Assembly: GCF_000015045.1 (NCBI RefSeq)
Contig: NC_008609.1
Span: 2,117,501 to 2,181,500, forward strand
Length of the DNA: 64,000 nt
Direction: 5' to 3'
DNA from: Pelobacter propionicus DSM 2379
GTDB taxonomy: Bacteria; Desulfobacterota; Desulfuromonadia; Geobacterales; Pseudopelobacteraceae
Below, in pieces: positions 5,213 through 20,231 of this stretch; within the stretch, counting starts at the first letter, position 1; the number at the start of each line of letters is the position of its first letter. The position numbers and the translations under genes are program-made. Below the pieces are notes generated by a model that saw nothing but the letters and a program-made list of their open reading frames with translations, was not told where the DNA came from and made no database searches.

Positions 5213-5733
5213 TGCTTGCCACCTCCGCCGTAGAGCAGGCGCGCCACCAGCATGCCGCCCAGGAAAAAGCAGGCCAGGGCTATGAAACCGCTGATCGCCA
5301 TCTGCATGGTCCCGCTCAGTCCGTGACCGCTGGGACAGCCGTCGGCCAGGCGGGCGCCGAACATGGCGATGATTCCGCCCACAACCGCCGCCAGCGCACG
5401 CCTGGACCGACTCGGGCCGAAGCGGGCCTGCCACATGTCGGGCAGCGCCTTCCAGTGGAAGCTGCCCGACGTGGTGGAGGCGATCAGGGAGCCGAAGAAG
5501 ACTCCCAGCACGAACATCCACTGCCAGTCGATCTTGGGCGCCTCCTTGATGAAGTACGCCATCGTCCCCACCCGCTCCGGGTCGATGCTTTTCTCGATCA
5601 TTCCCGCCGTGCGCACGAAGGTGGTGGAGGCGCCGAAGTATTTGCCGGACACCCACAGCGACAGGGTGGATACGATGCCGGTCAAAGCGCCCGCAAGATA
5701 GGGGTTCCAGCCGCGGTCATTGTTCTCGTCCAT
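5209..5733 (-). CDS. YeeE/YedE (TsuA-like) transporter, N-terminal half protein
   Basis: About 174 residues with several transmembrane segments and the motif ADGCPSGHGLSG, the first-half counterpart of the YCPGTS motif of its partner. A GTG at 5736 directly precedes the ATG at 5733; both are well spaced from a GGAGG site, so the start is uncertain by one codon. It overlaps the downstream half by four bases and its start lies next to the stop of the small secreted protein gene, so the three are probably one transcript. The role is inferred to be sulfur-compound uptake across the inner membrane. Confidence 0.88.
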   Translation of the reverse strand: MDENNDRGWNPYLAGALTGIVSTLSLWVSGKYFGASTTFVRTAGMIEKSIDPERVGTMAYFIKEAPKIDWQWMFVLGVFFGSLIASTTSGSFHWKALPDMWQARFGPSRSRRALAAVVGGIIAMFGARLADGCPSGHGLSGTMQMAISGFIALACFFLGGMLVARLLYGGGGKQ

Positions 5734-5736
5734 CAC

Positions 5737-6180
5737 CTATCTCCTCCAGCCGCTCCACACAGGCACGCCGTTTTTGTCCCTGAGCAGCAGCAGATTAGTC
5801 CCCTTCTTCACCTCGGCAGCGATGATGGTGGCGTTTCCCATCATGGTTACGCGGGAGCCCTTCACTTCGATCCTGTCCCCCTTTTCGATTTTACTGTCCA
5901 GGCGTTCAATGAACCAGGAGGGGCCGAGATGGACCGGGATGGTCTCCTTGTCCGTCTTCAGCGTCAGGTGGATTCCCGAGCCCATCCCCTTCATGGGCAT
6001 CATCGTATCCACACTCACCACCTGACCGGAAACGCTCTCCACCGTGGCCTGATTGTACATCCGCTGATAAGAGCCCCTCATCCCCCATCCGCCACTGCCG
6101 CCCATGCCCTGGGCCATGGCCATTGTACCGGTAAGAAACACCACCACACCTGCCATTGCCACACGTACGAACCGTTTCAT
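5737..6180 (-). CDS. Small exported protein, probably OB-fold, first gene of the YeeE pair operon
   Basis: 147 residues. The N-terminus has a clear signal peptide (MKRFVRVAM, hydrophobic core, AMAQG cleavage region). The mature part starts with a Gly/Met-rich stretch and then strands resembling a DUF5666-like OB fold (VSGQVVSVDTMMPMKGMG, GDRIEVKGSRVTMMG) and ends in a VWSGWRR tail. Start at 6180 is supported by AAGGAGA; an upstream in-frame ATG has no site. I do not recognise a defined function. The many methionines and the operon with sulfur transporter genes suggest a periplasmic protein tied to metal or sulfur chemistry, but that is only inference. Confidence 0.82.
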   Translation of the reverse strand: MKRFVRVAMAGVVVFLTGTMAMAQGMGGSGGWGMRGSYQRMYNQATVESVSGQVVSVDTMMPMKGMGSGIHLTLKTDKETIPVHLGPSWFIERLDSKIEKGDRIEVKGSRVTMMGNATIIAAEVKKGTNLLLLRDKNGVPVWSGWRR

Positions 6181-6276
6181 ATGTAGTCTCCTTTTCACAC
6201 TGGCGTTCCCGGTGATTGCCGGGGGACCCCGCCACGTTTCAGACCTGGTCACCGGCATGACGGCTCCACGGGAGTG

Positions 6277-6714
6277 TCACACGCCGATATCCTCGTTCCA
6301 CAGGTCCGGCCTGTTGTCGATAAACTGGCGCATCAGGGCGATGCACTCCTCGTCCTGCAGCAGTTCCACCTGCACGCCGCGGGAGCGGAGCAGTTCCTCC
6401 TCGCCCCGGAAGTTCCTGTTTTCTCCAATGACCACCCGCGGAATACCGTAGAGCAGGATCGCTCCCGCACACATGGGACAGGGGGACAACGTCGTATACA
6501 GCACCGACTCGCGGTAGATGGCTGCCGGCATCCGCCCCGCGTTCTCCAGGGCATCCATCTCTGCGTGAAGTATCACGCTCCCCTTCTGCACCCGCCGGTT
6601 ATGCCCCCTTCCCAGAACAGCCCCCCGGTGCACCACGAGCGAGCCGATGGGAATGCCCCCCTCGGCCAGCCCCTTCCGCGCCTCTTCTAAGGCGGCTTGC
6701 ATGAATTCGTCCAT
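6277..6714 (-). CDS. Cytosine deaminase of the zinc cytidine-deaminase superfamily, close in layout to fungal FCY1
   Basis: 145 residues with the zinc site HAE (His50, Glu52) and PCPMC (Cys79, Cys82). The whole length follows the pattern I remember for the small yeast cytosine deaminase: GGIPIGSLV, LGRGHN.R.QKGS, LEN.GR, TTLSPC.MC.GAI..YGIPR, the VGEN/IGEN-N-F segment and the C-terminal FIDNRP..W.EDIG. This differs from the large bacterial CodA amidohydrolase type and from tRNA adenosine deaminases. It would convert cytosine to uracil for pyrimidine salvage. It stands alone, with 95 bp to the operon below and divergent spacing above; a clear ribosome site was not seen. Confidence 0.9.
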   Translation of the reverse strand: MDEFMQAALEEARKGLAEGGIPIGSLVVHRGAVLGRGHNRRVQKGSVILHAEMDALENAGRMPAAIYRESVLYTTLSPCPMCAGAILLYGIPRVVIGENRNFRGEEELLRSRGVQVELLQDEECIALMRQFIDNRPDLWNEDIGV

Positions 6715-6934
6715 ATCCGTCTTCCCCCTCTCTCCGCTGGCGGCGGGAGTGTATCGTCTTCAAGTGTAGCCTCGGCTCGGCAACAGGCAATCTGCGGCGT
6801 CTCTTTTGTCAGCATAAAGGTCACGAATCGGGTTTCAAGCGGAGCAGCAGGTCAGCGGGGATTGTTTTGACGACGGTACGGCGGGATGCTATGGTTACGC
6901 GGCAAAATTCCAGGAAACATGGGGGGAGGATGAA

Positions 6935-7051
6935 ATGCGCAGGATAGGTCTCTTGCTGGTCGCCCTGCTGCTCGCGGGGCAGGCGGACAACGCCATCCAG
7001 TACCAGGTGCTGTTCTTCTCCAACAGATTCAAAAAGCTGGAGAGACAATAG
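6935..7051 (+). CDS. Possible 38-residue secreted or membrane peptide
   Basis: A short frame starting MRRIGLLLVALLLAGQADN, with positive N-terminus, hydrophobic core and a polar tail ending FKKLERQ. It is preceded by GGGGGAGG at 6921-6928, well spaced from the ATG, and it ends seven bases before the convergent YciI gene stop. The signal-like start and the good ribosome site are the only support; it could also be chance or the remnant of a longer exported protein. Confidence 0.35.
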   Translation: MRRIGLLLVALLLAGQADNAIQYQVLFFSNRFKKLERQ

Positions 7052-7057
7052 CGCGGC

Positions 7058-7348
7058 CTACAGTTCCAGCAGCCCCGCGAAATCCGCTGATGTGCGGTTG
7101 GCCGTGAATTCGGTGATCTGGTAGTCGGCAACCCCCTGCGCCCTGAAGGGGTCCTGATCCAGGATCTTTTCCAGTTCGGCGTGGGTGACGCCTTTTGCCA
7201 GGATCACCCCGCCATTGCGGGGAACCTTGCGGCCGGAGGCGATGAATACCCCCTGCTGGTAGAACCGGTCCAGAAAAGCCCGGTGGGCCTGGAGCTGACA
7301 CTCCACCACCTCCAGCGGCTGTGTATAGTGCAGTGACACGATGAACAT
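7058..7348 (-). CDS. YciI family protein
   Basis: 96 residues with the YCII fold: MFIVSLHYTQPLEVVE at the start, the conserved HRAFLD segment, the ASGRKVPRNGGVILAKG core and DQDPF, all family hallmarks (the His and Asp are the conserved pair). YciI proteins are small ferredoxin-like dimers, some with dehalogenase or hydrolase-like activity, most of unknown substrate. The ATG at 7348 is chosen because GGGGAGA precedes it. It follows the ArsR gene on the same strand by 81 bp and may be read from the same promoter. Confidence 0.9.
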   Translation of the reverse strand: MFIVSLHYTQPLEVVECQLQAHRAFLDRFYQQGVFIASGRKVPRNGGVILAKGVTHAELEKILDQDPFRAQGVADYQITEFTANRTSADFAGLLEL

Positions 7349-7429
7349 GAATGATCTCCCCAAGCAGCTTCAGTGGTTGACCAGCGACAGCATGGCGGCA
7401 AAAGAACGCTCCCCGGTCGCCAGAAGCGT

Positions 7430-7705
7430 TCACTCCAGCGCGGCGATGATCTTCTTCACCATGGGGTTGGTGACGCTGTAGCGCACCCCGGTCCCCTCGC
7501 GCCTGCCGGTGATGATGCCCCGGTTCTTGAGCAGCGCCAGGTGTTGGGAAACCGTTGCCTGGGGCAGACCCAGGCATTCCCATATATTCTTGACGTTGCA
7601 CTCCTTGGTGCACAACCCTGCCGCTATCTTGAGCCGGACCGGATGACCGAGCACCTTGAGGATCTCCGCCTCCTGGCTGTAGTCCCTTGTTTCTGAAGAT
7701 TCCAT
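7430..7705 (-). CDS. ArsR-family winged-helix regulator with clustered cysteines
   Basis: 91 residues: helix LKVLGHPVRLKIAAGL, recognition helix region LPQATVSQHLALLKNRGII and wing GRREGTGVRYSV. Three cysteines, Cys32, Cys36 (LCTKEC) and Cys44, sit in the helix alpha-3 area where ArsR/SmtB relatives bind metals or form persulfide-sensing disulfides. Start at 7705 is the most family-like; an ATG 30 codons upstream would add an unconserved tail. The promoter at 7805-7832 fits this gene. With the sulfur transporter and rhodanese nearby, a thiol or persulfide sensor is plausible; a metal sensor is the alternative. Confidence 0.88.
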   Translation of the reverse strand: MESSETRDYSQEAEILKVLGHPVRLKIAAGLCTKECNVKNIWECLGLPQATVSQHLALLKNRGIITGRREGTGVRYSVTNPMVKKIIAALE

Positions 7706-7804
7706 GAGCCGCGCCTTTGCTGGATGGTATGCCATGCTCCCCTGGCGTGGGTTCGCGAGAGCGGTGCGACGGAGAGCACGCCCCAACCCGCGAAAATTTC
7801 ATTC

Positions 7805-7832
7805 ATAATAGAGATATCCCCCCCGCTGTCAA
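7805..7832 (-). promoter_or_regulatory. Sigma-70 promoter of the arsR-type gene
   Basis: Read on the minus strand: TTGACA (7832-7827), 16-base spacer, TATTAT (7810-7805). Both boxes are near perfect. The palindrome GAAAATTTC at 7792-7800 lies just downstream and is a possible operator for autorepression. The rest of the interval 7706-8134 shows no convincing gene. Confidence 0.65.
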
Positions 7833-8134
7833 GCCCGGCGTCGGGAACGGTGATACCAAGAGAGCCGGAATGCGCTTCTTCCCGCCCTGTTGTGCTTTCG
7901 ACGTTTCCCGGTTCCTGATCCAGAGTCACGTGGCACTGCGACCTTTCAACAACAGCCAGGCCAGGGAGTAGGTTCCGCATCCCACCGGGAAAAAATCTTT
8001 GTTCTGCTGTTCAGGGGGCTCGTCTGCCGGAGACATTCACGCCTTTCCTCCCCTGGCGCCTTTTCGGCACGACACAGACTGCCCTGGCATGCAGGGATTC
8101 ACGGCGTCTACGCCGGGAGTGGAAGCCATCCCCT

Positions 8135-8163
8135 TTGACGTGGCGCATATGGCGGTATATAGT
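8135..8163 (+). promoter_or_regulatory. Sigma-70 promoter of the efflux operon
   Basis: TTGACG (8135-8140), 17-base spacer, TATAGT (8158-8163), about 70 bp before the adaptor gene. The segment GGCGGTATATAGT is repeated exactly in the promoter at 12469-12497 at the other end of the operon. Confidence 0.65.
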
Positions 8164-8231
8164 TCCTGGCATTATAACGGTTTAGGATCCGCGCAGGCAT
8201 GCTGACGCCCCCTGGGGAGAACGGGTATTCC

Positions 8232-9449
8232 ATGGAACACGAAGACCTGGACCAGTTGAAAATCGACAAGACGGTCACTGCGCCCCGCTCCGGAACTTCC
8301 CGGGGGAGGCGCTTCTGGGCAGCGGGGATTCTGCTGGTCGTCCTGGCGGTCTCCCTCTACGTCAGTGGTGTGCTGCGCCCCGCTGAAACCGTGGAGGTCG
8401 TGACCGTACAACAGATTTTCCCTTCCCAGGGCTTTACCCTGCTCAGCGCCAGCGGCTACGTCGTAGCCCAGCGCAAGGCCGCGGTGGCTTCCAAGGCGAC
8501 CGGTCGCCTGGTCTGGCTGGGGGTCGAGGAGGGGAGTGCCGTCCGCCAGGGGGACGTGATTGCCCGGATCGAAAACGCCGACGTGCTGGCCATCCAGTCC
8601 CAGGCGGCGGCGAACCTGAAGAACTGTCGCGCGGATCTGGACCAGGCCCTGGCGGAACTGCACGACGCCCACCTTTCCTTCAAGCGCTACACGATCCTGC
8701 TCTCCGATGGGGTCGTCTCCAGGGCTGACTTCGATGCGGCCCAGGCTCGCTACCGCAAGGCACAGGCCGCGGTCGCCGGCGCCAGGGCCGCCATCCGGTC
8801 GGCCTCGGCCGCTCTGGATGGCGCCAGGGTAGCGGTGGAGTTCACCTCCATCAGGGCTCCCTTCGACGCAGTGGTGCTGACCAAGAACGCCGATGTGGGG
8901 GATATCGTCACCCCCCTTGCCTCGGCGGCCAACGCCAAGGCGGCGGTGGTTACCATCGCCGACATGGGCTCCCTGCAGGTCGAGGTCGATGTCATGGAAT
9001 CCAGCCTTGAGAAGGTCCGGGTGGGGCAACCGTGCGAGATCCAGCTGGACTCCTTCCCCGACCTGCGCTTTCGCGGAGCTGTCCACATGGTCGTGCCCAC
9101 GGCGGACCGGAGCAAGGCCACCGTGCTGGTCAAGGTCAGGTTCCTGGACTTCGACCGGCGGATCCTGCCGGAGATGAGCGCCAGGGTGGCCTTCCTCTCC
9201 CGGCCGGTGGCAAACAGCGAACAGCGGCCGCGCACAACCATCCCCAGCGCTGCGCTGGTCCGGGGCCGCGGGCGAAACCTGGTCTTCCTGGTGGAGGGCG
9301 ACCGGATCAAGGAGAAACCGGTTAACCTGGGGGTGAAGGTGGGTGACCTGGTGGAGGTGACCAGTGGCGTAAAGAGCGGGGACAGCCTGGTCCTGCGCCC
9401 CGCCGGCAGCCTGCGGGACGGTTCCCGCATCAGCATTCCCGAGAAATGA
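8232..9449 (+). CDS. HlyD/MacA-family periplasmic adaptor of an ABC efflux system
   Basis: 405 residues. One N-terminal membrane anchor (FWAAGILLVVLAVSLYV, about 29-45), then a biotinyl-lipoyl-like half (SGYVVAQRKAAVASKATGRL), a coiled-coil hairpin (about 115-190, Ala/Arg-rich), the second lipoyl half with FTSIRAPFDAVV, and beta-barrel domains to the end. The ATG at 8232 follows GGGGAGAA; an in-frame ATG 33 bases earlier lacks one. Its last four bases overlap the ATPase start (ATGA). The set adaptor, ATPase and two FtsX permeases matches MacAB/DevBCA-like tripartite export, probably with an outer-membrane factor encoded elsewhere. The cargo cannot be told from sequence. Confidence 0.92.
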   Translation: MEHEDLDQLKIDKTVTAPRSGTSRGRRFWAAGILLVVLAVSLYVSGVLRPAETVEVVTVQQIFPSQGFTLLSASGYVVAQRKAAVASKATGRLVWLGVEEGSAVRQGDVIARIENADVLAIQSQAAANLKNCRADLDQALAELHDAHLSFKRYTILLSDGVVSRADFDAAQARYRKAQAAVAGARAAIRSASAALDGARVAVEFTSIRAPFDAVVLTKNADVGDIVTPLASAANAKAAVVTIADMGSLQVEVDVMESSLEKVRVGQPCEIQLDSFPDLRFRGAVHMVVPTADRSKATVLVKVRFLDFDRRILPEMSARVAFLSRPVANSEQRPRTTIPSAALVRGRGRNLVFLVEGDRIKEKPVNLGVKVGDLVEVTSGVKSGDSLVLRPAGSLRDGSRISIPEK

Positions 9450-10141
9450 ACCAGACAAAACCCGACATCGTCCAGATACGGAACCTCTCCAAATCCTATC
9501 GCAGGGGGAGCCAGATCATCCCGGTGCTGGAGGATATCAGCTTCCATATCCCCGACGGCGAATTCCTGGCTCTGATGGGGCCGTCCGGCTCGGGGAAGAG
9601 CACCCTGCTCAACCTGCTGGCCGGGATAGACTGCGCCGACTCCGGCAGCATCCTGATAGGCGGGGTGGATATAACCACCCTGGCCGAGAGGGAACTGGCC
9701 CGCTGGCGCTCCCTGCACGTCGGCTTCATCTTCCAGTTCTACAACCTGATCCCGGTCCTGACCGCCTTCGAGAACGTGGAGCTGCCGCTGCTCCTGACCC
9801 GCCTCTCCCGCGGGGAGCGGCGCGCCCATGTGGAGACGGCCCTCAGGGTGGTGGGGCTTGGGGACCGCATGGACCACTATCCCTCCCAGCTTTCCGGCGG
9901 CCAGCAGCAGCGGGTCGCCATCGCCCGGGCAGTGGTCACCGACCCCACCATCCTGGTGGCCGACGAGCCCACCGGCGACCTTGACCGCGGTTCGGCCGGC
10001 GAGGTCCTGGACCTTATGGAGCGGCTCAACCGGGAATCGGGCAAGACGATCATCATGGTCACCCACGACCCCCGGGCAGCGGAGCGGGCCCGCGTGATCA
10101 GGTATCTGGAAAAGGGCGAGCTGAGCGATGCATCTCGCTAA
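9446..10141 (+). CDS. MacB/LolD-type ABC transporter ATPase
   Basis: 231 residues with Walker A GPSGSGKST (45-53), Q-loop, the signature LSGGQQQR, Walker B ILVADEPTGDLD and the switch His in MVTHDPRAAERA. The pattern belongs to the MacB/LolD/FtsE family that drives mechanotransmission rather than substrate passage through the membrane. It overlaps the adaptor gene by 4 bases and the first permease by 14 bases, so all four genes are translationally coupled. Confidence 0.96.
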   Translation: MNQTKPDIVQIRNLSKSYRRGSQIIPVLEDISFHIPDGEFLALMGPSGSGKSTLLNLLAGIDCADSGSILIGGVDITTLAERELARWRSLHVGFIFQFYNLIPVLTAFENVELPLLLTRLSRGERRAHVETALRVVGLGDRMDHYPSQLSGGQQQRVAIARAVVTDPTILVADEPTGDLDRGSAGEVLDLMERLNRESGKTIIMVTHDPRAAERARVIRYLEKGELSDASR

Positions 10142-11285
10142 GCTGCTCTTCAGAAATGCCTTCCGCCACCGCCTGCGCACCTCCCTGACGATCCTCGGCA
10201 TCACCATCGCCATCCTCTCCTTCGGCATGCTGCGCACGGTGATCAGCGCCTGGTACGCCGGCGTGGACGCCTCGTCCGCCAGCCGCCTGGTCACCCGCAA
10301 CGCCATCTCCCTGGTATTCTCCCTGCCCCTCTCCTACAAAGAGCGCATCCGCCAGGTTGACGGCGTCCAGCAGGTCTCCTACGGCAGCTGGTTCGGCGGC
10401 CTCTACATCGACGAAAAGAACTTCTTCCCCAACTTCGCCGTGGAAACCGAGCAGTACCTGAAGCTCTACCCCGAGTACGTCCTATCCCCGGAACAGCTGG
10501 CCGCCACCATCCGCGACCGCAAGGGGTGCGTGGCCGGCCGCAAGCTGGCGGAGCGCTTCCGTTGGAAGATCGGCGACAGCATCGTGCTCAAGGGAACCAT
10601 CTATCCGGGTGAATGGGAGTTCGTGCTGCGGGGCATCTACCGGGGCAGGGAAAAGACCGTGGACGAGACCCAGCTGTTCTTCAACTGGGACTACCTGAAC
10701 GAGACCATGAAGAAGACGGTGCCCCGCCGGGCCAATCAGGTGGGCTTCTACATGGTCGGGGTGACCTCCCCCAGCAGGGCGGCGGATGTGGCCCTGGCCA
10801 TCGACCGGCTCTTCAGGAACTCCCTGGCCGAGACCCTGACCGAGACGGAGAAGGCCTTCCAGCTGGGCTTCATCTCCATGACCGAGGCGATCGTCATCGC
10901 CATCCAGCTGGTCTCCTTCGTGGTGATCGTCATCATCATGGCGGTGGTGGCCAACACCATGGCCATGACGGCGCGGGAACGCATCGCTGAGTACGCGGTG
11001 TTCAAGACCCTGGGCTTCCGCGGCTACCACATCGCCGGCCTGATCCTGGGCGAATCGCTGCTGATCACCATGACCGGCTGCATCCTGGGCATCGCCCTCA
11101 CCTTTCCGGCTGCCAGCGCCTTCGGCAGCGCCCTGTCCGCCTACTTCCCGATCTTCAACGTGGCCCCCTCCACAATCTGGCTGGACCTTCTGGCAGCCCT
11201 GCTGGTGGCGCTGGTGGCGGCGATCTTCCCCGCCTGGCGCGCCACGACCATCCCCATCGCCGATGGCCTGCGGAGGATCGGCTGA
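10128..11285 (+). CDS. MacB-type ABC permease with periplasmic domain (FtsX fold), first copy
   Basis: 385 residues: one N-terminal membrane helix after LRTSLTILGITIAI, a long extracytoplasmic MacB periplasmic core domain (about 45-255) and three C-terminal helices (about 265-285, 310-340, 355-372), the FtsX arrangement. MTARERIAEYAVFKTLGFR is the family coupling loop after the second helix. It is followed after two bases by a second, related permease, so the membrane part is a heterodimer rather than the homodimer of classical MacB. Confidence 0.93.
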   Translation: MHLAKLLFRNAFRHRLRTSLTILGITIAILSFGMLRTVISAWYAGVDASSASRLVTRNAISLVFSLPLSYKERIRQVDGVQQVSYGSWFGGLYIDEKNFFPNFAVETEQYLKLYPEYVLSPEQLAATIRDRKGCVAGRKLAERFRWKIGDSIVLKGTIYPGEWEFVLRGIYRGREKTVDETQLFFNWDYLNETMKKTVPRRANQVGFYMVGVTSPSRAADVALAIDRLFRNSLAETLTETEKAFQLGFISMTEAIVIAIQLVSFVVIVIIMAVVANTMAMTARERIAEYAVFKTLGFRGYHIAGLILGESLLITMTGCILGIALTFPAASAFGSALSAYFPIFNVAPSTIWLDLLAALLVALVAAIFPAWRATTIPIADGLRRIG

Positions 11286-11287
11286 CC

Positions 11288-12454
11288 ATGGCCATACCCT
11301 TTTCCTACAGCCTGCGCAACCTCTGGACCCGCCGCCTGACCACGGTGCTGACCGCCTCGGGCATGGCCCTGGTGGTGTTCGTCTTCGCCTCCATACTCAT
11401 GCTCTCCGAGGGGCTCAGGAAGACCCTGGTGCAGACCGGCTCAGCGGACAACGTGGTGGTGATCCGCAAGGGATCTGCCTCGGAGGTGCAGAGCGGGATC
11501 GAGCGCGCCCAGGCGGCCGTGGTGGAGACCGAACCCCAGGTGACCCTGGGCGAGCGTGGGCGCCGTCTCCTGGCCAGGGAGCTCTTGGTGCTGATCAACC
11601 TGCCCAAGCGGGGAAGCGGCACCACCTCCCAGGTGACCATCCGCGGCATCCAGCCGGAGTCGCTGCTGCTGCGCCCCCAGGTCAGGCTGATCAGGGGGAG
11701 GATGCCTAGGCCCGGATCATCGGAGATCATGGCCGGGGCCAGCATCGCCCGGCGATTCCGGGGAGGCGGCATGGGAGAAGTGCTGCGCTTCGCCATGCGC
11801 GACTGGACCGTGGTGGGAATCTTCGACGCCGGCAACCGGGCGTTCAGCTCGGAGATCTGGGGCGACGCCGACCAGCTCATGCAGGCCTTCCGGCGTCCGG
11901 TGTACTCCTCGCTGATCTTCAAGCTGGCCGACTCGTCGGCCTTTGGTGCGGTGAAGCAACGCATCGAGAACGACCCCCGCCTGACCCTGGAGGCGCGGCG
12001 GGAGACGACGTACTATGCCGACCAGTCGGAGATGATGGCCACCTTTCTCAATATCCTGGGGCTGTCGCTGACGGTGATCTTTTCCCTGGGCGCCATCATC
12101 GGTGCCATGATCACCATGTACTCCGCCGTGGCCAACCGCACCGGCGAGATCGGCACCCTGCGGGCGCTGGGCTTCCAGCGCAGGAGCATCCTTGTGGCCT
12201 TCCTGCTGGAGTCGCTGCTGCTGGGCCTGGTGGGCGGCTGCGTCGGCCTCTTCTTTGCCTCTTTTCTGCAACTCTTCACCATCTCCACCCTCAACTTCCA
12301 GACTTTTTCCGAGCTGGCCTTCAGCTTCACCCTCACCGTCGGTATCTTCTACAAATCGTTGCTCTTCTCCCTGATCATGGGATTCATCGGCGGCGTGCTG
12401 CCGGCCTTCCGCGCCTCGCGGAAGACCATCGTCGAGGCGCTGCGGGTGACCTGA
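11288..12454 (+). CDS. MacB-type ABC permease with periplasmic domain (FtsX fold), second copy
   Basis: 388 residues with the same plan as its partner: N-terminal helix (LTTVLTASGMALVVFVFA), an extracytoplasmic domain (about 45-250) and three helices near the C-terminus, with the coupling motif ANRTGEIGTLRALGFQRR. It ends the operon. The two permeases differ clearly in sequence, consistent with an old duplication and an asymmetric transporter. Confidence 0.93.
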   Translation: MAIPFSYSLRNLWTRRLTTVLTASGMALVVFVFASILMLSEGLRKTLVQTGSADNVVVIRKGSASEVQSGIERAQAAVVETEPQVTLGERGRRLLARELLVLINLPKRGSGTTSQVTIRGIQPESLLLRPQVRLIRGRMPRPGSSEIMAGASIARRFRGGGMGEVLRFAMRDWTVVGIFDAGNRAFSSEIWGDADQLMQAFRRPVYSSLIFKLADSSAFGAVKQRIENDPRLTLEARRETTYYADQSEMMATFLNILGLSLTVIFSLGAIIGAMITMYSAVANRTGEIGTLRALGFQRRSILVAFLLESLLLGLVGGCVGLFFASFLQLFTISTLNFQTFSELAFSFTLTVGIFYKSLLFSLIMGFIGGVLPAFRASRKTIVEALRVT

Positions 12455-12468
12455 TGTTCTCTTCGTCT

Positions 12469-12497
12469 TTGACGTAAAGAGCAGGGCGGTATATAGT
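12469..12497 (+). promoter_or_regulatory. Sigma-70 promoter for the downstream membrane protein gene
   Basis: TTGACG (12469-12474), 17-base spacer, TATAGT (12492-12497). It shares TTGACGT and GGCGGTATATAGT with the promoter at 8135-8163. It sits right after the last efflux gene and about 110 bp before the ATG at 12606. Confidence 0.6.
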
Positions 12498-12605
12498 GCT
12501 AAAATTAAAATACATTTCAGGACAATATCCCAACATCAAACCAAATCTCGCGGTTGACTCAAAAAAACGTCAGGTAAATCCTCTGCAGTTAGGTCTCTAT
12601 CGTAA

Positions 12606-13115
12606 ATGGAAACATTCGAACGCCCATATAAGCAAGTCTCGCGCGTCAAAGCGCTATTGCTCTTCTTCTTCCGCCCCAAAGCATTTGTCGAGTTTGCAGC
12701 CGAGCACGACATCGCATGGCTACTTTGTGACAGTCCTGAAATAAGGGCTGACTACCTACGAGGCGAATACAAGCCCAACGTCGCGCAGCATCATGATGAC
12801 GCCAAGCAAAGGGCGGAAGCCCTTCGTCGCTCACTACTCCATGCTGCAATGGTTGTCTTGGTCACGGCCTTACTTGGCCTCGTTACTGGGCTACTACTTC
12901 AACGTCAGGTCGGAATGCTTGCTACCTTTGCAAGCAATATTCTTCAGGCCGTCGCCGTAGGCATTATCCTTTGGGCCACACTTTGGCAACTCACCAGAGA
13001 TCTTCAGAGTTTTGGAGGCAACAGCCTCCCGGAGCGTGTACACAGCTGGATCTTTAACGCCCTGTACATCATTGGCACATTTATACTATTCATCGTCTAT
13101 GGCTGGCAGACCTAA
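12606..13115 (+). CDS. Membrane protein of unknown function
   Basis: 169 residues, not recognised. The N-terminal 70 residues are soluble and charged (with FFFRPKAFVEFAAEHDIAWLL), followed by three probable membrane helices at about 78-98, 103-125 and 148-166. Codon and base use are visibly more AT-rich than in the efflux operon upstream. The start is the ATG at 12606; no strong ribosome site precedes it. It has its own promoter candidate and is followed by transposon-like debris, so it may have arrived by transfer. No function is proposed. Confidence 0.7.
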   Translation: METFERPYKQVSRVKALLLFFFRPKAFVEFAAEHDIAWLLCDSPEIRADYLRGEYKPNVAQHHDDAKQRAEALRRSLLHAAMVVLVTALLGLVTGLLLQRQVGMLATFASNILQAVAVGIILWATLWQLTRDLQSFGGNSLPERVHSWIFNALYIIGTFILFIVYGWQT

Positions 13116-13254
13116 GCATGCTATTAGACATAATGTCTGTCGGGGGGCGACCTCAGGGGTCGGGCTTGCTTTGTTGTTTAAACTGTATATACGCCCCCCA
13201 TGGCCCGCAAACAAAGCATACACTATTGGTGAAAAAGCACTTGGTTCCAGACAA

Positions 13255-13326
13255 CGGGGCAGAGAAGTTACTGAAGCCCGCACCCTGACAGCCTGGGCGG
13301 TCTCGGAGTTTTCCGACGCAACCATC
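13255..13326 (+). pseudogene. Possible remnant of a REP-associated tyrosine transposase
   Basis: Within an otherwise unconvincing frame the stretch EARTLTAWAVSEFSDATI (13273-13326) resembles the helix-turn-helix end of TnpA-REP/Y1 transposases (pattern ARSLLCYWAVRELG). Nothing of the catalytic HUH region is seen upstream, so at most a short decayed tail remains. The call rests on a short similarity from memory and on the repeat element that follows directly. Confidence 0.3.
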
Positions 13327-13357
13327 AGGGAAACACAGGGATCAGGGAAACACAGGG
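13324..13357. repeat. Perfect 17-bp tandem duplication
   Basis: ATCAGGGAAACACAGGG occurs twice without gap at 13324-13340 and 13341-13357. The second copy runs into the left arm of the inverted-repeat element that starts at 13354. Confidence 0.9.
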
Positions 13358-13529
13358 GTCAGAGCTCAACACTTGACATACTGTTACGACCCGGAAGCTG
13401 CCCGAGAGGCGCTTGCCGACAAAATGGAAGAGGAAATCAAGCCGTTTCAGCGGGCGGCATGATCGAATAAAGAGGGATCGAGAGGCAGACCTGCGTAATT
13501 GCTTTACCAAATGCGGAGCTCTGACCCCT
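13354..13529. mobile_element. Small inverted-repeat element (MITE/REPIN-like)
   Basis: A perfect 14-bp inverted repeat, AGGGGTCAGAGCTC at 13354-13367 and GAGCTCTGACCCCT at 13516-13529, encloses about 150 bp. GAGCTCTGACCCC-type ends are, from memory, common next to REP-associated transposases. The interior holds a short open stretch (YDPEAAREALADK, about 13380-13460) that looks like the tail of a lost gene. Non-autonomous: no transposase inside. Confidence 0.55.
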
Positions 13530-13587
13530 CAGCATGCTTACTCCGCGCTTACAGCAAATATATTACAAAACCCCAGAGGGTCCCCTC

Positions 13588-14871
13588 ATGGCCAATCACC
13601 CCGCCTCCAAAAACACTGCTCGACATATGTACAGAAAATGGGTTCTGTTTGTGCGCAAACTGGGCTTCCCGCTGAAGATCACGCCACATATCCCAACCGC
13701 TTGCATAACGGGCAGTGTGGGAAAAACAACGACGTGCCGAATGGTTGCATCTATTTTGCGGGAAACGGGCAAAACGGTCGCACTGAGCACGACTCTCGGT
13801 ACATATGTGGGAGACAGTCCTCGGTGTATCGGCGATTCTTCAAATGGCCGCCGCGGCAGTCGGTTGTTGGCAGAGCGCCAAGTTGACGCAGGGGTGTTTG
13901 AAATTGCACGAGGCGGTCTCATTAATGAGGGAATGTTGTTTTCCAACTACGATATCGGCGCGCTGCTGAATGTTTACGACAACCACATCGGCCTGAAGGG
14001 GGTTGAGTCTCGGGCCGATCTGGCCAAAGTAAAAAAACAGGTGGTGGTCAATGCCCGGAAAATGGCCATTTTGAACGCGGACGACCCTTTGTGTCTTGGG
14101 GTAAAGAAGGACATTCGTGCCGCGCGCACATGTCTGATCACGATGACTGCTGAGAGCCCCGTTGTGCGCGATCACATGTCCAGGGGGGGCGTAGCTGTTC
14201 GTCAGGAAGGCAACGGGGCAGAGGCGATGATCAGGTTGTACGAGGGCAACAAAATGGTCCTCTCCATGGCAGCTCTGGATATTCCTGCCAGTTGGGGAGG
14301 TCGATATCGGCCAGCAATCAACAATGCCATGTTTGCTGCAGCCATTACGTATGGGCTGGATGTTTCTACACAATCCATACGAGCGGGCTTGCGTAGCTTT
14401 CAGTCAGATGAGGTCAGCAACCCAGGCAGAATGAATTTTTATGACCATCTACCCTGCGGTTTGCTGATTACCTGGGCAGACGGCCCGGAGGCGGCCTGCG
14501 AAATTGCCGATTTTGTGTCCCTCCATACCATTTCAGGGAAAAAGCATCTGATGCTCGCGGCTATGGGAAATCGCCCGGATGCTTTCATCGTGGAGACGGC
14601 GCTGGCGTTTTCGGGCAGATTTGACAGCTACATCAGCACCGACTGGGAAGACTTGCGTGGGCGTGCGCCTGGGGAAGTTGCCGGGCTTCTGGCCAGCGGG
14701 TTCAAAAATGGCGGGGTCGATCAAAGCAGGATAGAAATCGCCACGTCGTATGATGATGGCTTGTCACGTGCATTTGCCAAGCCGTCTCAGGGGGACTTGC
14801 TCGTCATTGTGAGTTTCAGCGGCTGGAGGGCAAAAGAACAGGGCTTGTTCAAAAGCAAAAACATCCCATGA
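13588..14871 (+). CDS. Stand-alone Mur ligase related to the ligase domain of cyanophycin synthetase
   Basis: 427 residues. The ATP-binding P-loop is TGSVGKTTT (about 41-49), followed by GTYVGD and the segment VFEIARGGLINEGM..NYDIGALLNV, then NHIGL and AILNADDP. This order (GD..G.RS..LL, E.ARGG) is characteristic of the C-terminal Mur-ligase part of cyanophycin synthetase rather than MurC/D/E/F. The ATP-grasp half that adds the other amino acid is absent. The C-terminal third is the ligase alpha/beta domain. The start is uncertain: 13588 (weak AGAGGG) or 13534. It overlaps the downstream lipoprotein region and lies beside mobile debris with AT-richer composition, suggesting transfer. It should form an amide bond between a carboxylate and an amine; substrates are unknown. 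Confidence 0.82.
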   Translation: MANHPASKNTARHMYRKWVLFVRKLGFPLKITPHIPTACITGSVGKTTTCRMVASILRETGKTVALSTTLGTYVGDSPRCIGDSSNGRRGSRLLAERQVDAGVFEIARGGLINEGMLFSNYDIGALLNVYDNHIGLKGVESRADLAKVKKQVVVNARKMAILNADDPLCLGVKKDIRAARTCLITMTAESPVVRDHMSRGGVAVRQEGNGAEAMIRLYEGNKMVLSMAALDIPASWGGRYRPAINNAMFAAAITYGLDVSTQSIRAGLRSFQSDEVSNPGRMNFYDHLPCGLLITWADGPEAACEIADFVSLHTISGKKHLMLAAMGNRPDAFIVETALAFSGRFDSYISTDWEDLRGRAPGEVAGLLASGFKNGGVDQSRIEIATSYDDGLSRAFAKPSQGDLLVIVSFSGWRAKEQGLFKSKNIP

Positions 14872-14900
14872 ACGAGACATCGCACAAGGAGGCAGAAGCC

Positions 14901-16130
14901 ATGGGAAGATCAGCTTCAGGTGCCGTGACGGCACTTATCACGATTGCCCTGCTCGCGGCTTTCGGCTGCGACGGCAATCAGAACACGACCCTGGCAGCGG
15001 CGGGCGACGGGCCGGCCCTGACCCGCACGCTGCTTTTGTCCGGGCTGGAAAAACCCTGGGATCTGGCCTTCACCCCCGACGGCGCCCTGCTGTTCACGGA
15101 GAAGTGCCGCGGGCTCTCGGCGCGACGTGCGGACGGCAGCGTGAAGCGACTGTTCGGCACAAAGGGCTCGGCCCTGGTGGCCGATGATCTCTTCTGCAGC
15201 GGCCAGAGCGGCATGAACGGGGTGGCCGTGGATCCGGACTTCACCCGCAACCGCTATGTCTACGTCTACATGGCATCCAGACTGAGCAACCCGGCGACGA
15301 ACCGCGTCGTACGCCTGCGGGTGGATCGGGGTTATACCAGCGTGGGCAACCGCAGGGACATCGTCAGCGACATCCCCTTCAAGCACAGGGCCAACCGCTG
15401 GGGCGGTCCCGGAACCCACAGCGGTGGCCGCATCCGCTTCAGCCCAACTGACCGGTTCCTCTACGTCACCACGGGCGACAACCACAACGGCCCGCTCCCC
15501 CAGGACCTGACCCGACTGGGGGGCAAGACCCTGCGCATAGACCGCGACGGCAGAGCAGCGCCCGGCAATGCTACACCGGCTAAGGGCGATGGACGCATCT
15601 TCACCTGGGGACACCGCAACGTGCAGGGGATCGCCTTCCGTCCCGTCAGCGGCCAGCCATTTGCCTGCGAGCACGGCCCGGGACACAGCGACGAGGTAAC
15701 GCCGCTCATCGCCGGGGGCAACGGCGGATGGGACCCGAAGCCCGGGCCGGGCGTTGCCTGCGAGGATGACTACTGCGGCTACGTCTCCAACAGGGCGGAC
15801 GGCAGGCCGACGCCGATGACCGACCTGGACCGGTTCCCCGCGGCGCTCCCTCCCTCCTGGAACAACGGCGGCAGATCACAGGGGATGAGCCCCTGCGTCT
15901 TCCTGAGCGGCCCCCAGTGGAAGGGGTGGGACGGCCGGCTGGCGGTGGGCTTTTTGCGCGGCAAACGCATCGAGATGCTGCAGCTTGACAGGACGGGCAG
16001 GACTATTGCAACATCGACCGTCCCCGACATCCCGGCCGAGCGCATCCGCACGCTGGTCCAGGGGCCGGACAACGCTCTGTACGTATCCACCGACGGCGGA
16101 GAAATCTGGAAACTCACCCCGCGCCCCTGA
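14901..16130 (+). CDS. PQQ-type glucose/sorbosone dehydrogenase-like lipoprotein
   Basis: 409 residues. A signal peptide with lipobox LLAAFGC gives an exported lipoprotein. The mature part is a six-bladed beta-propeller of the soluble aldose sugar dehydrogenase (YliI/GdhB) type: LEKPWDLAFTPDGALLFTEK, MNGVAVDPDF, GGRIRFSPTDRFLYVTTGD, FTWGHRNVQGIAF, CEHGPGHSDEV and the last blade GPDNALYVSTDGGEIWKL. The HGPG..DEV segment lines the cofactor site in relatives. The start follows AAGGAGG at 14886; a longer frame begins inside the ligase gene (ATGA at 14868), so the two genes are adjacent or overlapping and likely one transcript. It would oxidise sugars or aldehydes outside the inner membrane if PQQ is available. 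Confidence 0.88.
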   Translation: MGRSASGAVTALITIALLAAFGCDGNQNTTLAAAGDGPALTRTLLLSGLEKPWDLAFTPDGALLFTEKCRGLSARRADGSVKRLFGTKGSALVADDLFCSGQSGMNGVAVDPDFTRNRYVYVYMASRLSNPATNRVVRLRVDRGYTSVGNRRDIVSDIPFKHRANRWGGPGTHSGGRIRFSPTDRFLYVTTGDNHNGPLPQDLTRLGGKTLRIDRDGRAAPGNATPAKGDGRIFTWGHRNVQGIAFRPVSGQPFACEHGPGHSDEVTPLIAGGNGGWDPKPGPGVACEDDYCGYVSNRADGRPTPMTDLDRFPAALPPSWNNGGRSQGMSPCVFLSGPQWKGWDGRLAVGFLRGKRIEMLQLDRTGRTIATSTVPDIPAERIRTLVQGPDNALYVSTDGGEIWKLTPRP

Positions 16131-16463: not shown

Positions 16464-19400
16464 ATGATTGTCGGTATCATCCCTGGAAATACGAGGCGTT
16501 CCCGTTGGCTCTGGCCGGCAGGGGCGTTTTTTTTGGCTCTGCTTCTGGCTGTACTGGCGTGGAACCGTACCCCTGATCCTCCCAAAGCCGACCCGCTGAC
16601 CATGGCGGAGAGGGCCTGGCTGAAGGCTCATCCTGTCATCCGACTGGCGCCTGATCCGGATTTTCCTCCGGTGGAATATTTCGACAAGGACGGCAGGTAC
16701 AGCGGCATAACCTCAGATTACCTGGCGCTTTTGGAAAAGAAGCTCGGCATACGCTTCGAGATCGTCCGCCTGCGTAACTGGGACGAGATCATCGGCAGTG
16801 CCAAACGCCGGCAGATCGACGCCTTTGTGGCCAGCACTACCCCGCAACGATCCGCATACACGCTGTCCACCACGCCTTTCCTGGAGTATCCCGCCGTAAT
16901 CATTGCCCGCGAAAAGGTCAAGGGGCCGCTCACCCTGGAATCTCTCGGCGGGATGAGGGTGTCGGCGGTTTCGGAATATGCGACCCATGATTTCATCGCC
17001 GCTCATTATCCGAAATTGTTGCTGGATCCGGTCCCGGATATCAGGACCGGACTGCGGAAAGTGTCCTTCGGCCTGAGCGACGCTTTTGTGGAGAATCTGG
17101 CCACCGCCAGCTATTACATCGAACGAGAGGGAATCAGTAACCTGCGCATAGCCGGCGACTCCGGATATGTGTACAGAATGGGATTCTGCTCGCGGAACGA
17201 CTGGCCGGAACTGAACCGCATCCTGGAGAAAGGAGTTGCCGGAATCAGTGCCGAGGAGAAGAGAGCCATTTATAACAAATGGATTCCCCTGGAGCACAGA
17301 TCACTGTTCAGCAGCAGGAAATTCCAGATCGGCCTCCTGGTTGTTTGTGCGGCGATTCTCGCGATTGTCGTCGGAGTCATTGCCGTGAACAGGGCACTTG
17401 CGCGGCAGGTCAGGCTGAGGACGGGGGAACTGGAAAGCGAACTGGCCCGGCGCAGACGCATGGAAGAAGAGCTGCGCCGCGCGCGGGAAGAACTGGAGAA
17501 GCGGGTCGAAGACAGGACGGTGGAGGTGCGAAACGCCAACGAATTGCTGGAACGCGAGATCACCGTGCGCAGGCGGAACGAAAGCGTCATCATGGCACGA
17601 TTGCGCCTGCTCCAGTTCGCCGGTACCCACACCCAGGACGAACTGCTGGAGGCCACCCTGGACGAGGCCGAGGCGTTGACCGGAAGCGTGATCGGTTTTT
17701 ACGTGCTCGTCCTGGATGATCAGAAAACACTGTCGCTTCAGAACTGGTCCACCAGGACCAAGAGGGATTACTGCAAGGCGGAAGGGAAAGGGCTGCACTA
17801 CGACATCGCGCAGGCCGGGGTCTGGACGGATTGCATCCACCAGCGCCGGCCGGTCATCCACAACGACTACGGCTCCCTCTCCCATCGCAAGGGGTTGCCG
17901 TCGGGACACGCTCCCCTGGCCAGGGAACTGGTGGTGCCGGTCTTCCGCGGTGAAAACATTGTGGCGATTCTTGCCGTGGGCAACAAACCGACCGACTATA
18001 CCCCCCTGGACGTTGAAGCGGTTGTCCTGCTGGCCGATCTCGCCTGGGAAATCACCGAGCAAAAGAGGATGGAGAAAGAGCTGCTCCTGTCCCATTTCTG
18101 TATCGACGGGGCAGCCATCGGCATCTACCACACCACACCCGAAGGAACTATCCTGAACGCCAACGATTTCGCCTGCCGGAGTCTCGGTTACACGCCAGAC
18201 GAAGTGCGCGCACTGAAAGTCAAGGATATCGATCCGGTCATAACAGACGAGAAAATAGCCGAAATCAAAAGATTGTTGGAGAGCACCGGCTCCGTTACCC
18301 ACGAATCGGTTCACCGACGAAAAGACGGGACGACTTTCCCGGTGGAGATCGTCACCAATTCCCTGGAGTTCCAGGGCAGAGTGTACGGCTTCTCCTTTGT
18401 CAGCGACATCACCGAGCGCAAGCGTGCGGAGGAGACGTTACGGGAGAGCGAGTCGCGCGCAAGCCGAAAACTGGACAACATTCTGGATCCCGAGGGAGAC
18501 ACGGCTGAGCTGGATCTGGCCGATATTCTGGACGCGCCGCAGATCCAGGCGCTCATGAATGACATGTACCGCATTACCGGCCTCAAGATGAGCATCATCG
18601 ATCTCAAGGGGCGGGTGCTGGTGGATATGGGATGGCAGGGTATCTGCGCCAGATTCCACCGTGCCCATCCGGAAACCCTTAAGAATTGCATTGAAAGCGA
18701 TTCGGACCTTACCGTGGGAGTTCCCCGGGGGGAATTCAAGACGTACCGATGCAAGAACAACATGTGGCACCTGGTCACCCCGATCATTGTCGGCGAACGA
18801 CACCGGGGCAACCTCTTCATGGGGCAGTTCTTCTTCGAGAACGAGGAGATCGATTACGACCTCTTCCGCCGGCAGGCGAGGACCTACTGCTTTCCCGAGA
18901 AGGAATACATCGCGGCCCTGGAAAGCGTGCCCCGTCACAGCGAAGAGCTCGTGAACCAGGGGAAGACCGTTTTCCTGAGGCTCATCGATATGTTCTCGAA
19001 GCTGAGCTACGCCAACATCAAGCTGGCGCATTCCCTGGCCGAGCGCGACCAGTTGACGGCAACGCTGCGCCAGGCCAACATGGTGGTGGAAAACAGCCCG
19101 GTGGTGCTGTTCCGCTGCAAGCCGGTTCCCGGCTGGCCGGTGGAGCTGGTGTCACGGAATGTGCTGCAGTTCGGCTATACGCCCGAAGAGTTCATGTCCG
19201 GTGAGCGCGATTACGCTTCCATCGTGTACCCACCGGATCTGGGATGGGTAACCGGCGAGACGGACGAGTACGCAGCAACGGACGAAGGGCAGCTGCGCCA
19301 GGAATACCGGATCCTCACCAAGGCGGGGGAGATCCGTTGGATCATCGATGAAACGAATTACGAGCGAAACGAAGCAGGGGAGATCACCAACCTGGAGGGG

Positions 19401-20231
19401 GTGATCATCGATGTCACCCAGCGCAAGCGGGCCGAGGAAGAGCTCCAGCGGCAGCAAAGCCTGCTGAAGGAACTGAACGACACGCTGGAGAGAAGGATCG
19501 AAGAGGAGGTAAAGAAAAACCGGGAAAAGGACATCCTGCTCATCCAGCAGAACCGCCAGGCAGCCCTGGGGGAGATGCTGGACCACATCGCCCACCAGTG
19601 GAAACAGCCGATCAACTCAATCTCCCTCATCGCCCAGGATATGGCCGACAGCTCATCCTACGGCGAACTGACTGATGGGGATGTGCAGACAACCATCGAC
19701 AAAATCATGTCGCTCCTGGAGCACATGTCCCAGACCGTCGATGTGTTCAGGGGTTTCTACCGGCCGGACAAGGAAACGAAACTATTCAGCATCAGGGACG
19801 CCATCGATCAGGCACTGGTATTCATTACGCCGGTTTTCAGATACGAGTCCATCGCCATAGAGCTCGACGTGGATGGGGACATGACCGCATTCGGCTATCC
19901 CAAGGAATACGCACAGGCGCTGCTCAACATACTGGCCAACGCCAGGGATGTGTTCAGAAAAAGGAAAACAAGAGAACCCAGGGTGCTGCTGCGGGGGGTC
20001 GGGGAAGGCGGCAGATCGGTTGTCACCATCACGGACAACGCCGGCGGTATTCCCGAGGCGATTATTGACAGGATCTTCGATGTGTATTTCACCACCAATG
20101 AGGCGAGCGGCGGAACCGGAATCGGTCTCTATATGTCGCGTAATATCGTTGAAAAGAATATGGGCGGAAACCTGAGCGCCGAAAACGTGGAGGGTGGCGC
20201 ACGCTTCAGAATAGAGCTCCCCAGCGCCTGA
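16464..20231 (+). CDS. Large membrane histidine kinase: SBP-like sensor, GAF, PAS, PocR, PAS, kinase
   Basis: 1255 residues. Domains in order: membrane helix (about 15-34); extracytoplasmic bacterial solute-binding type 3 domain (about 55-275, starting WLKAHPVIRLAPDPDFPPVEY); second helix (about 290-312); coiled coil (315-380); GAF-type domain (385-540, with the SGHAPLARELVVPV segment); PAS (545-665); PocR ligand-sensing domain (about 680-850, cysteine-rich, GWQGICARFH, CIESD, YRCKNNMWHLVTPI); PAS (870-990); kinase with His1044 in IAHQWKQPIN; and HATPase (NILANARDVF, DNAGGI, GGTGIGLYMSR). There is no receiver domain and no regulator gene adjacent. It should sense an outside solute plus a cytoplasmic ligand, perhaps a small hydrocarbon derivative as for PocR, and phosphorylate an unlinked regulator. 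Confidence 0.93.
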   Translation: MIVGIIPGNTRRSRWLWPAGAFFLALLLAVLAWNRTPDPPKADPLTMAERAWLKAHPVIRLAPDPDFPPVEYFDKDGRYSGITSDYLALLEKKLGIRFEIVRLRNWDEIIGSAKRRQIDAFVASTTPQRSAYTLSTTPFLEYPAVIIAREKVKGPLTLESLGGMRVSAVSEYATHDFIAAHYPKLLLDPVPDIRTGLRKVSFGLSDAFVENLATASYYIEREGISNLRIAGDSGYVYRMGFCSRNDWPELNRILEKGVAGISAEEKRAIYNKWIPLEHRSLFSSRKFQIGLLVVCAAILAIVVGVIAVNRALARQVRLRTGELESELARRRRMEEELRRAREELEKRVEDRTVEVRNANELLEREITVRRRNESVIMARLRLLQFAGTHTQDELLEATLDEAEALTGSVIGFYVLVLDDQKTLSLQNWSTRTKRDYCKAEGKGLHYDIAQAGVWTDCIHQRRPVIHNDYGSLSHRKGLPSGHAPLARELVVPVFRGENIVAILAVGNKPTDYTPLDVEAVVLLADLAWEITEQKRMEKELLLSHFCIDGAAIGIYHTTPEGTILNANDFACRSLGYTPDEVRALKVKDIDPVITDEKIAEIKRLLESTGSVTHESVHRRKDGTTFPVEIVTNSLEFQGRVYGFSFVSDITERKRAEETLRESESRASRKLDNILDPEGDTAELDLADILDAPQIQALMNDMYRITGLKMSIIDLKGRVLVDMGWQGICARFHRAHPETLKNCIESDSDLTVGVPRGEFKTYRCKNNMWHLVTPIIVGERHRGNLFMGQFFFENEEIDYDLFRRQARTYCFPEKEYIAALESVPRHSEELVNQGKTVFLRLIDMFSKLSYANIKLAHSLAERDQLTATLRQANMVVENSPVVLFRCKPVPGWPVELVSRNVLQFGYTPEEFMSGERDYASIVYPPDLGWVTGETDEYAATDEGQLRQEYRILTKAGEIRWIIDETNYERNEAGEITNLEGVIIDVTQRKRAEEELQRQQSLLKELNDTLERRIEEEVKKNREKDILLIQQNRQAALGEMLDHIAHQWKQPINSISLIAQDMADSSSYGELTDGDVQTTIDKIMSLLEHMSQTVDVFRGFYRPDKETKLFSIRDAIDQALVFITPVFRYESIAIELDVDGDMTAFGYPKEYAQALLNILANARDVFRKRKTREPRVLLRGVGEGGRSVVTITDNAGGIPEAIIDRIFDVYFTTNEASGGTGIGLYMSRNIVEKNMGGNLSAENVEGGARFRIELPSA

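Follow-up and report, generated by a model that had tools for sequence, protein, structure and literature searches.

What does a gene for one half of a cyanophycin synthetase (CphA) encode when it stands alone, and does it belong to a module with the gene that follows it? This question is raised by a gene, hereafter LIG, in a 64,000-nucleotide stretch of Pelobacter propionicus DSM 2379 (contig NC_008609.1, positions 2,117,501 to 2,181,500), which is called the window and in which all coordinates are counted from the first letter. The initial annotation had described a CphA-type Mur ligase lacking the ATP-grasp half, coupled to a sugar dehydrogenase. Judged from the sequence, the chances are about even that LIG is an orphan, probably horizontally acquired and divergent relative of the CphA M domain, which would act as a Mur-type amide ligase with changed specificity and lies beside a dehydrogenase of separate history. 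The gene is as follows.

13588-14871, + strand: stand-alone CphA-type Mur ligase LIG (M half: Mur core and altered lid), 427 amino acids; from the open reading frame (ORF) list, Pfam, NCBIfam, PDB, shuffles and G+C content at third codon positions (GC3)

Analysis of the frame and of its profile matches revealed that the gene is real and a homologue of the M half of CphA. An alternative start (ATG at 13534) gives 445 amino acids. Open runs reached at most 269 codons in 500 mononucleotide-shuffled versions of the stretch, so a frame open for 427 codons is unlikely to be due to chance. Mur_ligase_M (PF08245, 63.5 bits) is the sole Pfam match above cut-off. The top NCBIfam profile is cyanophycin synthetase (TIGR02068), with 277 bits; the match runs from profile position 471 to 847 of 862, which is the M half. 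This score is far under the cut-off of 850 bits, which applies to the whole enzyme. Cyanophycin synthases take the first five places among the PDB structures (E 3.8e-55 to 2.1e-44). The family assignment made earlier is thus borne out by the M-half profile and the CphA chains. Among rival profiles, murF scored 48 bits, murE 41, folC 21.5 and murC 19.6; a MurC or FolC identity, which had been named as the alternative to be checked by profile, was ruled out on these scores against 277 bits.

The absence of the ATP-grasp half is supported by searches of the protein, the upstream DNA and the host genome. No Pfam match to ATP-grasp, to the CphA N domain (PF18921) or to Mur_ligase_C was found in the ligase at E <= 1; the N domain was present in three of the five comparison proteins scanned (L046, the cphA product of L056, and L058). 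No recognisable ATP-grasp remnant was found upstream (12455-13620) by tblastn with 19 CphA-type frames, L045 among them, and the best three matches (E 0.018-0.039) were all to Mur regions. A truncated CphA whose ATP-grasp half decayed in place was rejected, as this interval holds no clear remnant. In the host genome TIGR02068 matched LIG and further Mur-ligase genes, and its matches to ATP-grasp proteins were weak, with no CphA-type ATP-grasp half among them; with a full-length CphA-like protein of 903 amino acids from another genome of the phylum (G083) as query, LIG was recovered together with just a single weak match to an ATP-grasp protein.

These searches bear on the idea of an ATP-grasp partner that is encoded at another locus and acts together with the ligase, in the manner of the split CphA-like pairs of two other genomes (G265 and G504). 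In these pairs (L065, L066) an ATP-grasp gene and a Mur gene are adjacent, and the Mur proteins group weakly with LIG. However, the matches in the host were only weak and none adjoins the ligase; a dedicated partner elsewhere in the host was rejected, and we consider this arrangement very unlikely. No gene for a cyanophycinase or isoaspartyl peptidase lies beside the ligase, a result that covers the neighbouring genes only. The neighbours are ABC-transporter-like genes (named by eye), a membrane ORF, a dehydrogenase of the glucose/sorbosone dehydrogenase (GSDH) family and a histidine kinase.

Active-site residues of the ligase were located at four sites.

13708-13731, + strand: P-loop TGSVGKTT, residues 41-48, in which the Asn conserved in CphA is Val44 (PDB alignment, alignment A1)
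13897-13917, + strand: FEIARGG motif, residues 104-110, whose Glu105 matches by position the Mg-binding Glu558 of TeCphA1 (alignments; excerpts of PMC9427784)
13981-13986, + strand: Asn132-His133, replacing Asp585-His586 of SuCphA1 (PDB alignment; excerpts of PMC9262961)
14467-14487, + strand: ITWADGP, residues 294-300, replacing the CphA lid motif (V/I)DYAHNP (alignments)

Glu558 of TeCphA1 binds Mg, Asn497 sandwiches adenine and His748 meets the gamma-thiophosphate (PMC9427784), and a double mutation of Asp585-His586 in SuCphA1 inactivates the M domain (PMC9262961). TeCphA1 residues were assigned to the ligase by motif and spacing, without direct alignment. By position, Lys499 (K46), Thr500 (T47), Thr522 (T69), Glu558 (E105) and Arg731 (R281) of TeCphA1 and His586 of SuCphA1 (H133) are kept, as is the LRGR word at residues 356-359. 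Of the words that the initial annotation had claimed for the ligase, the P-loop and VFEIARGGL are both present (TGSVGKTT at residues 41-48; E105), and GD..G.R is altered, CphA GDRRD being GNRPD at residues 327-331. The ligase does not hold the full M-domain active-site set of CphA1 (TeCphA1 and SuCphA1 residues combined), three positions being changed.

Conserved columns were compared in alignment A1, which has 16 rows, 14 of them canonical, and 89 columns taken as conserved because 12 or more of these 14 agree; L044, L052, L063 and the second ligases of Ruegeria and Roseateles are outside it. Identity between LIG and the 14 CphA-type M domains is 26-36% over 374-381 columns. LIG departs from the conserved residue in 31 columns; the G083 protein departs in 15 of these same columns, where 7.7 would be expected (hypergeometric P 0.0003), and in five of the 15 the two proteins agree with each other (G87, V139, a gap at 158, N328 and A338). 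The common departures suggest a trait of a lineage and not decay alone.

In a maximum-likelihood tree built from 23 rows, LIG fell among the CphA-type rows, grouped with the G083 protein and the ligases of G265 and G504. Support for the group (84/85) falls under the 95/80 mark of the tool, and the fork is unstarred; the stem of the G265 and G504 proteins is 3.34 long. L045 was left out of the tree because the frame extracted for it was that of L044, truncated where the locus ends.

Genome searches for relatives were confined to the host's phylum. In the host's family, matches at E <= 1e-3 occurred in 67 of 76 genomes (host included). In the other genomes the best E value was 5.1e-9, and the matches there cover at most about 270 residues within longer Mur-type frames and were therefore read as ordinary Mur ligases; no CphA-type relative was found in the 75 other genomes of the family. 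At E <= 1e-12, with the host included, matches were found in 6 of 395 genomes for the phylum and 2 of 277 for the class, and in 2 of 22 for the class of G083, the three sets overlapping. Outside the host all of these matches lie in frames of 650-908 amino acids, and no stand-alone relative was found in the genomes drawn from the phylum. Among plasmids, 33 of 72,556 records matched at E <= 1e-3, with 19 of the 33 annotated as cphA or cyanophycin synthetase; 13 of 23 plasmid records were inspected together with their genes. One of 50,697 phage records matched at E <= 1e-5. A scan of genome contigs with the ligase protein gave two loci (28-30% identity over 139-141 residues); in viral contigs no match was found with the ligase protein, and two P-loop-only matches were found with the alignment.

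The comparison set includes CphA-type ligases without ATP-grasp of 578 (Ruegeria) and 601 amino acids (Roseateles), both after cphA, and proteins with an N domain and a Mur part in Legionella adelaidensis (622 amino acids) and Deinococcus deserti (724 amino acids). A Paracoccus plasmid (L059, 4007-4764) carries a 115-codon gene annotated as 'Mur ligase family', which overlaps a hypothetical gene, is 43% identical to LIG over 66 residues and looks like a fragment of a CphA-type ligase. In literature searches limited to open-licence PMC, a stand-alone CphA M domain was not the subject of any title or abstract that surfaced, and 'Pelobacter propionicus' and 'cyanophycin' occurred together in no paper.

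On the preferred reading, the ligase most likely still folds as a Mur ligase. With Mg-ATP it would phosphorylate a carboxylate on a peptide or small molecule, and the resulting acyl phosphate would be attacked by an amine. It would make no cyanophycin, because the lid and part of the acceptor side are changed and no Asp-adding partner was found; another carboxylate and another amine would be its substrates. Amide formation between an amine and a carboxylate, as proposed earlier, is possible, and is weakened by the changes at several M-domain active-site residues.

A number of observations weigh against an active ligase of this kind. By position, TeCphA1 His748 is D298 and Asn497 is V44, and SuCphA1 Asp585 is N132. 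LIG keeps 58 of the 89 conserved columns (65%) and the G083 protein 67, whereas the canonical rows, each scored leave-one-out, keep 78-97%. The same departure test applied to other rows gave 9 against 4.6 and 8 against 3.9 expected for Ruegeria and Roseateles (P ~0.009) and a slight excess for the Legionella and Mesorhizobium rows (P 0.04); since other rows show an excess too, tolerant columns account for part of that between LIG and G083. The Deinococcus rows are the most identical to LIG (36%), slightly above the G083 protein (34%). The LIG branch is 1.73 long against a median of 0.44, and its placement is unsure according to the tool's warning on long rows. No close relative was found for gauging selection, and a single-sequence AlphaFold2 model of the fold was of low confidence (predicted local distance difference test score 36, predicted template modelling score 0.25).

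Much of this also agrees with LIG being a remnant, catalytically dead or in decay, of a cyanophycin synthetase gene whose transfer did not include the N and ATP-grasp halves. The lid DYAHNP, Asp585 and the adenine-stacking Asn are all changed, the branch is long, no partner was found in the host genome, and the rest of the host's family yielded no CphA-type relative. Against such a remnant, the 427 codons contain no stop or frameshift, the residues of the Mg/ATP core are kept, the departures held in common with the intact 903-residue G083 protein exceed expectation, and the upstream DNA gave nothing better than the tblastn matches to Mur regions. We regard the remnant as a serious, if less probable, explanation. 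Activity with changed specificity appears slightly likelier than a relic because neither the reading frame nor the Mg/ATP core is disrupted and because half of the changed columns are changed in a full-length relative as well. If active, LIG would be a one-domain form of the Arg-adding half of CphA with an altered ATP lid and would help to ask which M-domain residues set substrate choice; if a relic, it would be a case of ordinary gene transfer and decay.

Composition and setting were examined in relation to the origin of the gene. Two further features lie upstream of it.

12606-13115, + strand: small membrane protein (by eye) with low GC3; no Pfam match above cut-off, DUF5671 and SLATT_1 below it
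13354-13529, no strand: 176-bp stretch with 22-nucleotide inverted ends, 86% complementary (inverted-repeat scan)

The ligase gene has 54.0% GC and a GC3 of 0.60. In the nine genes chosen for GC3 measurement, the ligase included, this low value is shared only with the membrane ORF at 12606 (51.4% GC, GC3 0.55), which possibly belongs to the same foreign stretch. GC3 is 0.75 for the histidine kinase and 0.85-0.93 for four transporter-like genes and a LysE-like ORF. The dehydrogenase has 67.2% GC and a GC3 of 0.83, a gap of 0.23 to the ligase. The AT-richer composition that the initial annotation had ascribed to the gene pair therefore holds for the ligase, together with the ORF at 12606, and fails for the dehydrogenase.

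Mobile-element debris had also been claimed ahead of the pair, and it is only weakly supported by the 176-bp stretch. The exact 14-mer end occurs twice in the window; with two mismatches allowed, the control expectation is 0.66, and two occurrences were reached in 15 of 100 shuffles. The inverted-repeat scan also gave further inverted pairs of comparable length in this region, and the stretch is single-copy in the host genome. Its ends start like those beside a transposase-like ORF (by eye) in G060 (L071). The stretch is a possible transposase-linked remnant and could be due to chance; its position next to the ligase would fit a decaying gene. A perfect 17-bp tandem duplication (ATCAGGGAAACACAGGG, 13324-13357) lies just ahead of it.

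The last transporter-like gene (11288-12454) is conserved in seven of the eight family genomes searched. In five genomes, no ORF downstream of that gene matches the window at E <= 1e-8 (about 8 kb searched in each, 2.5 kb for G058). The ligase thus lies in variable DNA shortly after a conserved gene. It was probably acquired horizontally; the setting fits transfer without proving it.

Downstream of the ligase, two features were assigned.

14886-14892, + strand: ribosome-binding site AAGGAGG for the start at 14901 (read from the sequence)
14901-16130, + strand: glucose/sorbosone dehydrogenase-family lipoprotein, 409 amino acids from the preferred start at 14901 (420 from 14868); Pfam, NCBIfam, PDB and composition

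The description of this gene product as a sugar-dehydrogenase lipoprotein agrees with our results: PF07995 places it in the GSDH family (204 bits, cut-off 25), and its N-terminus is lipoprotein-like by eye. TIGR03606 scored 110 bits, under its cut-off of 434. The nearest PDB chain is 2ism (E 1.1e-35), and the relatives are solved oxidoreductases and glucose dehydrogenases. A search for PqqC, of pyrroloquinoline quinone synthesis, gave no match in the host genome, yet also none in 14 control genomes. The AAGGAGG site sits 8 nucleotides ahead of the ATG at 14901 (MGRSASGAVTALITIALLAAFGC), which is 29 bases past the ligase stop. The start was placed there because of this spacing and the lipoprotein-like signal that opens there; the ATG at 14868, which overlaps the ligase stop, looks like a secondary start. 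The overlap of the two genes reported earlier is hence a matter of start choice, and the ribosome-binding site favours 14901 over 14868. The next gene (16464-20231) encodes a 1255-residue histidine kinase with SBP_bac_3, GAF, PAS and PocR domains.

That ligase and dehydrogenase form a small modification module is suggested by their common strand and by the 29 bases between them. No promoter-like or terminator-like + strand site was found between the genes, which carries little weight because the scans yield no more sites than shuffles. However, orthologues of the dehydrogenase (70% identical, E <= 1e-20) occur in 2 of the 75 other family genomes (G015 and G060), and in neither does the ligase lie upstream. 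The ORF just upstream is DMT-type transporter-like in G015 and peptidase-like in G060, both named by eye and on the other strand, and DNA similarity of these loci to the window begins at 15001 or 15018, within the dehydrogenase gene. Of the six genomes that have other CphA-type ligases, just one, G402, gave a GSDH match, which is weak (31%, E 1.5e-11) and on a different contig; outside the host the pair occurred in no genome searched for both. The GC3 values differ (0.60 against 0.83), as do the apparent compartments, the ligase having no signal peptide visible by eye and the dehydrogenase appearing to be a lipoprotein. The joint function proposed earlier was rejected for want of conserved co-occurrence in the genomes searched, since the dehydrogenase occurs without the ligase in relatives; of the explanations weighed here we give it the least credence, and the link should not be carried forward.

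Comparison with known systems sets LIG closest to the M domain of CphA1 (TIGR02068; PDB 7lg5, 7lgm, 7wac), with which it shares the Mur core, the P-loop, the Mg-binding Glu and the ARGG, NV..NH, NADDPL, PGR and LRGR words. Unlike CphA1, it is without the N and ATP-grasp domains and has TWADGP for DYAHNP, GNRPD for GDRRD, NH for DH and Val for the P-loop Asn. The cyanobacterial variant CphA2 differs from LIG in keeping its ATP-grasp domain. Excerpts of PMC10206079 describe CphA2 as having a single working site and as repolymerising beta-Asp-Arg dipeptides; the one working site is a likeness to LIG.

The second Mur ligases that directly follow cphA in Ruegeria (L056, 4356-6092, 578 amino acids) and Roseateles (L061, 4358-6163, 601 amino acids) are also CphA-type without a Pfam ATP-grasp or N domain. 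In contrast to LIG, they keep DFAHNP and Mur_ligase_C and have a cyanophycinase gene before cphA; they are 26-28% identical to LIG. Each has an N-terminal region of about 195 amino acids without a Pfam match.

The G083 protein (L064/P0001) gave the top score of the phylum search (E 1.4e-61, 35% identity), in addition to the common departures. Unlike LIG, it spans nearly the whole CphA profile (2-849 of 871, below cut-off) and has ATP-grasp and Mur_ligase_C matches; no PF18921 match was found in it at E <= 0.001. At its locus (5330-10579), the lid is DRPVNA for DYAHNP, and the gene lies beside a glycosyltransferase and an AMP-dependent CoA-ligase-like gene (below cut-offs), not a cyanophycinase.

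The split pairs of G265 (L065, 2701-6861) and G504 (L066, 7830-11976) consist of an ATP-grasp protein with a partial Mur region (727 and 738 amino acids) and a separate Mur protein (644 and 662 amino acids). The Mur proteins resemble LIG in the GSVGKTTT, VFE/LFE and GRGG words and in having neither DYAHNP nor a Mur_ligase_C match; they differ in their greater length, an N-terminal extension, the adjoining ATP-grasp gene and an identity to LIG of 22-24%. The L066 pair is near a glycosyltransferase, an AMP-binding enzyme and an MBOAT acyltransferase (Pfam), and the L065 pair is near sugar-transferase-like and glycosyltransferase-like ORFs (by eye). The split pairs are possibly an amide-forming system for polysaccharides. 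It is conceivable, though unlikely, that a distinct clade of ligases descended from CphA unites LIG, the G083 protein and the split ligases of G265 and G504. Its members would have a remodelled lid lacking DYAHNP, would have given up cyanophycin synthesis and would attach amino acids or amines to other carboxylates, such as those of surface polysaccharides; LIG would be the minimal one-domain form. Such a clade, with members beside polysaccharide genes, would hint that CphA-type ligases may have been reused outside nitrogen storage.

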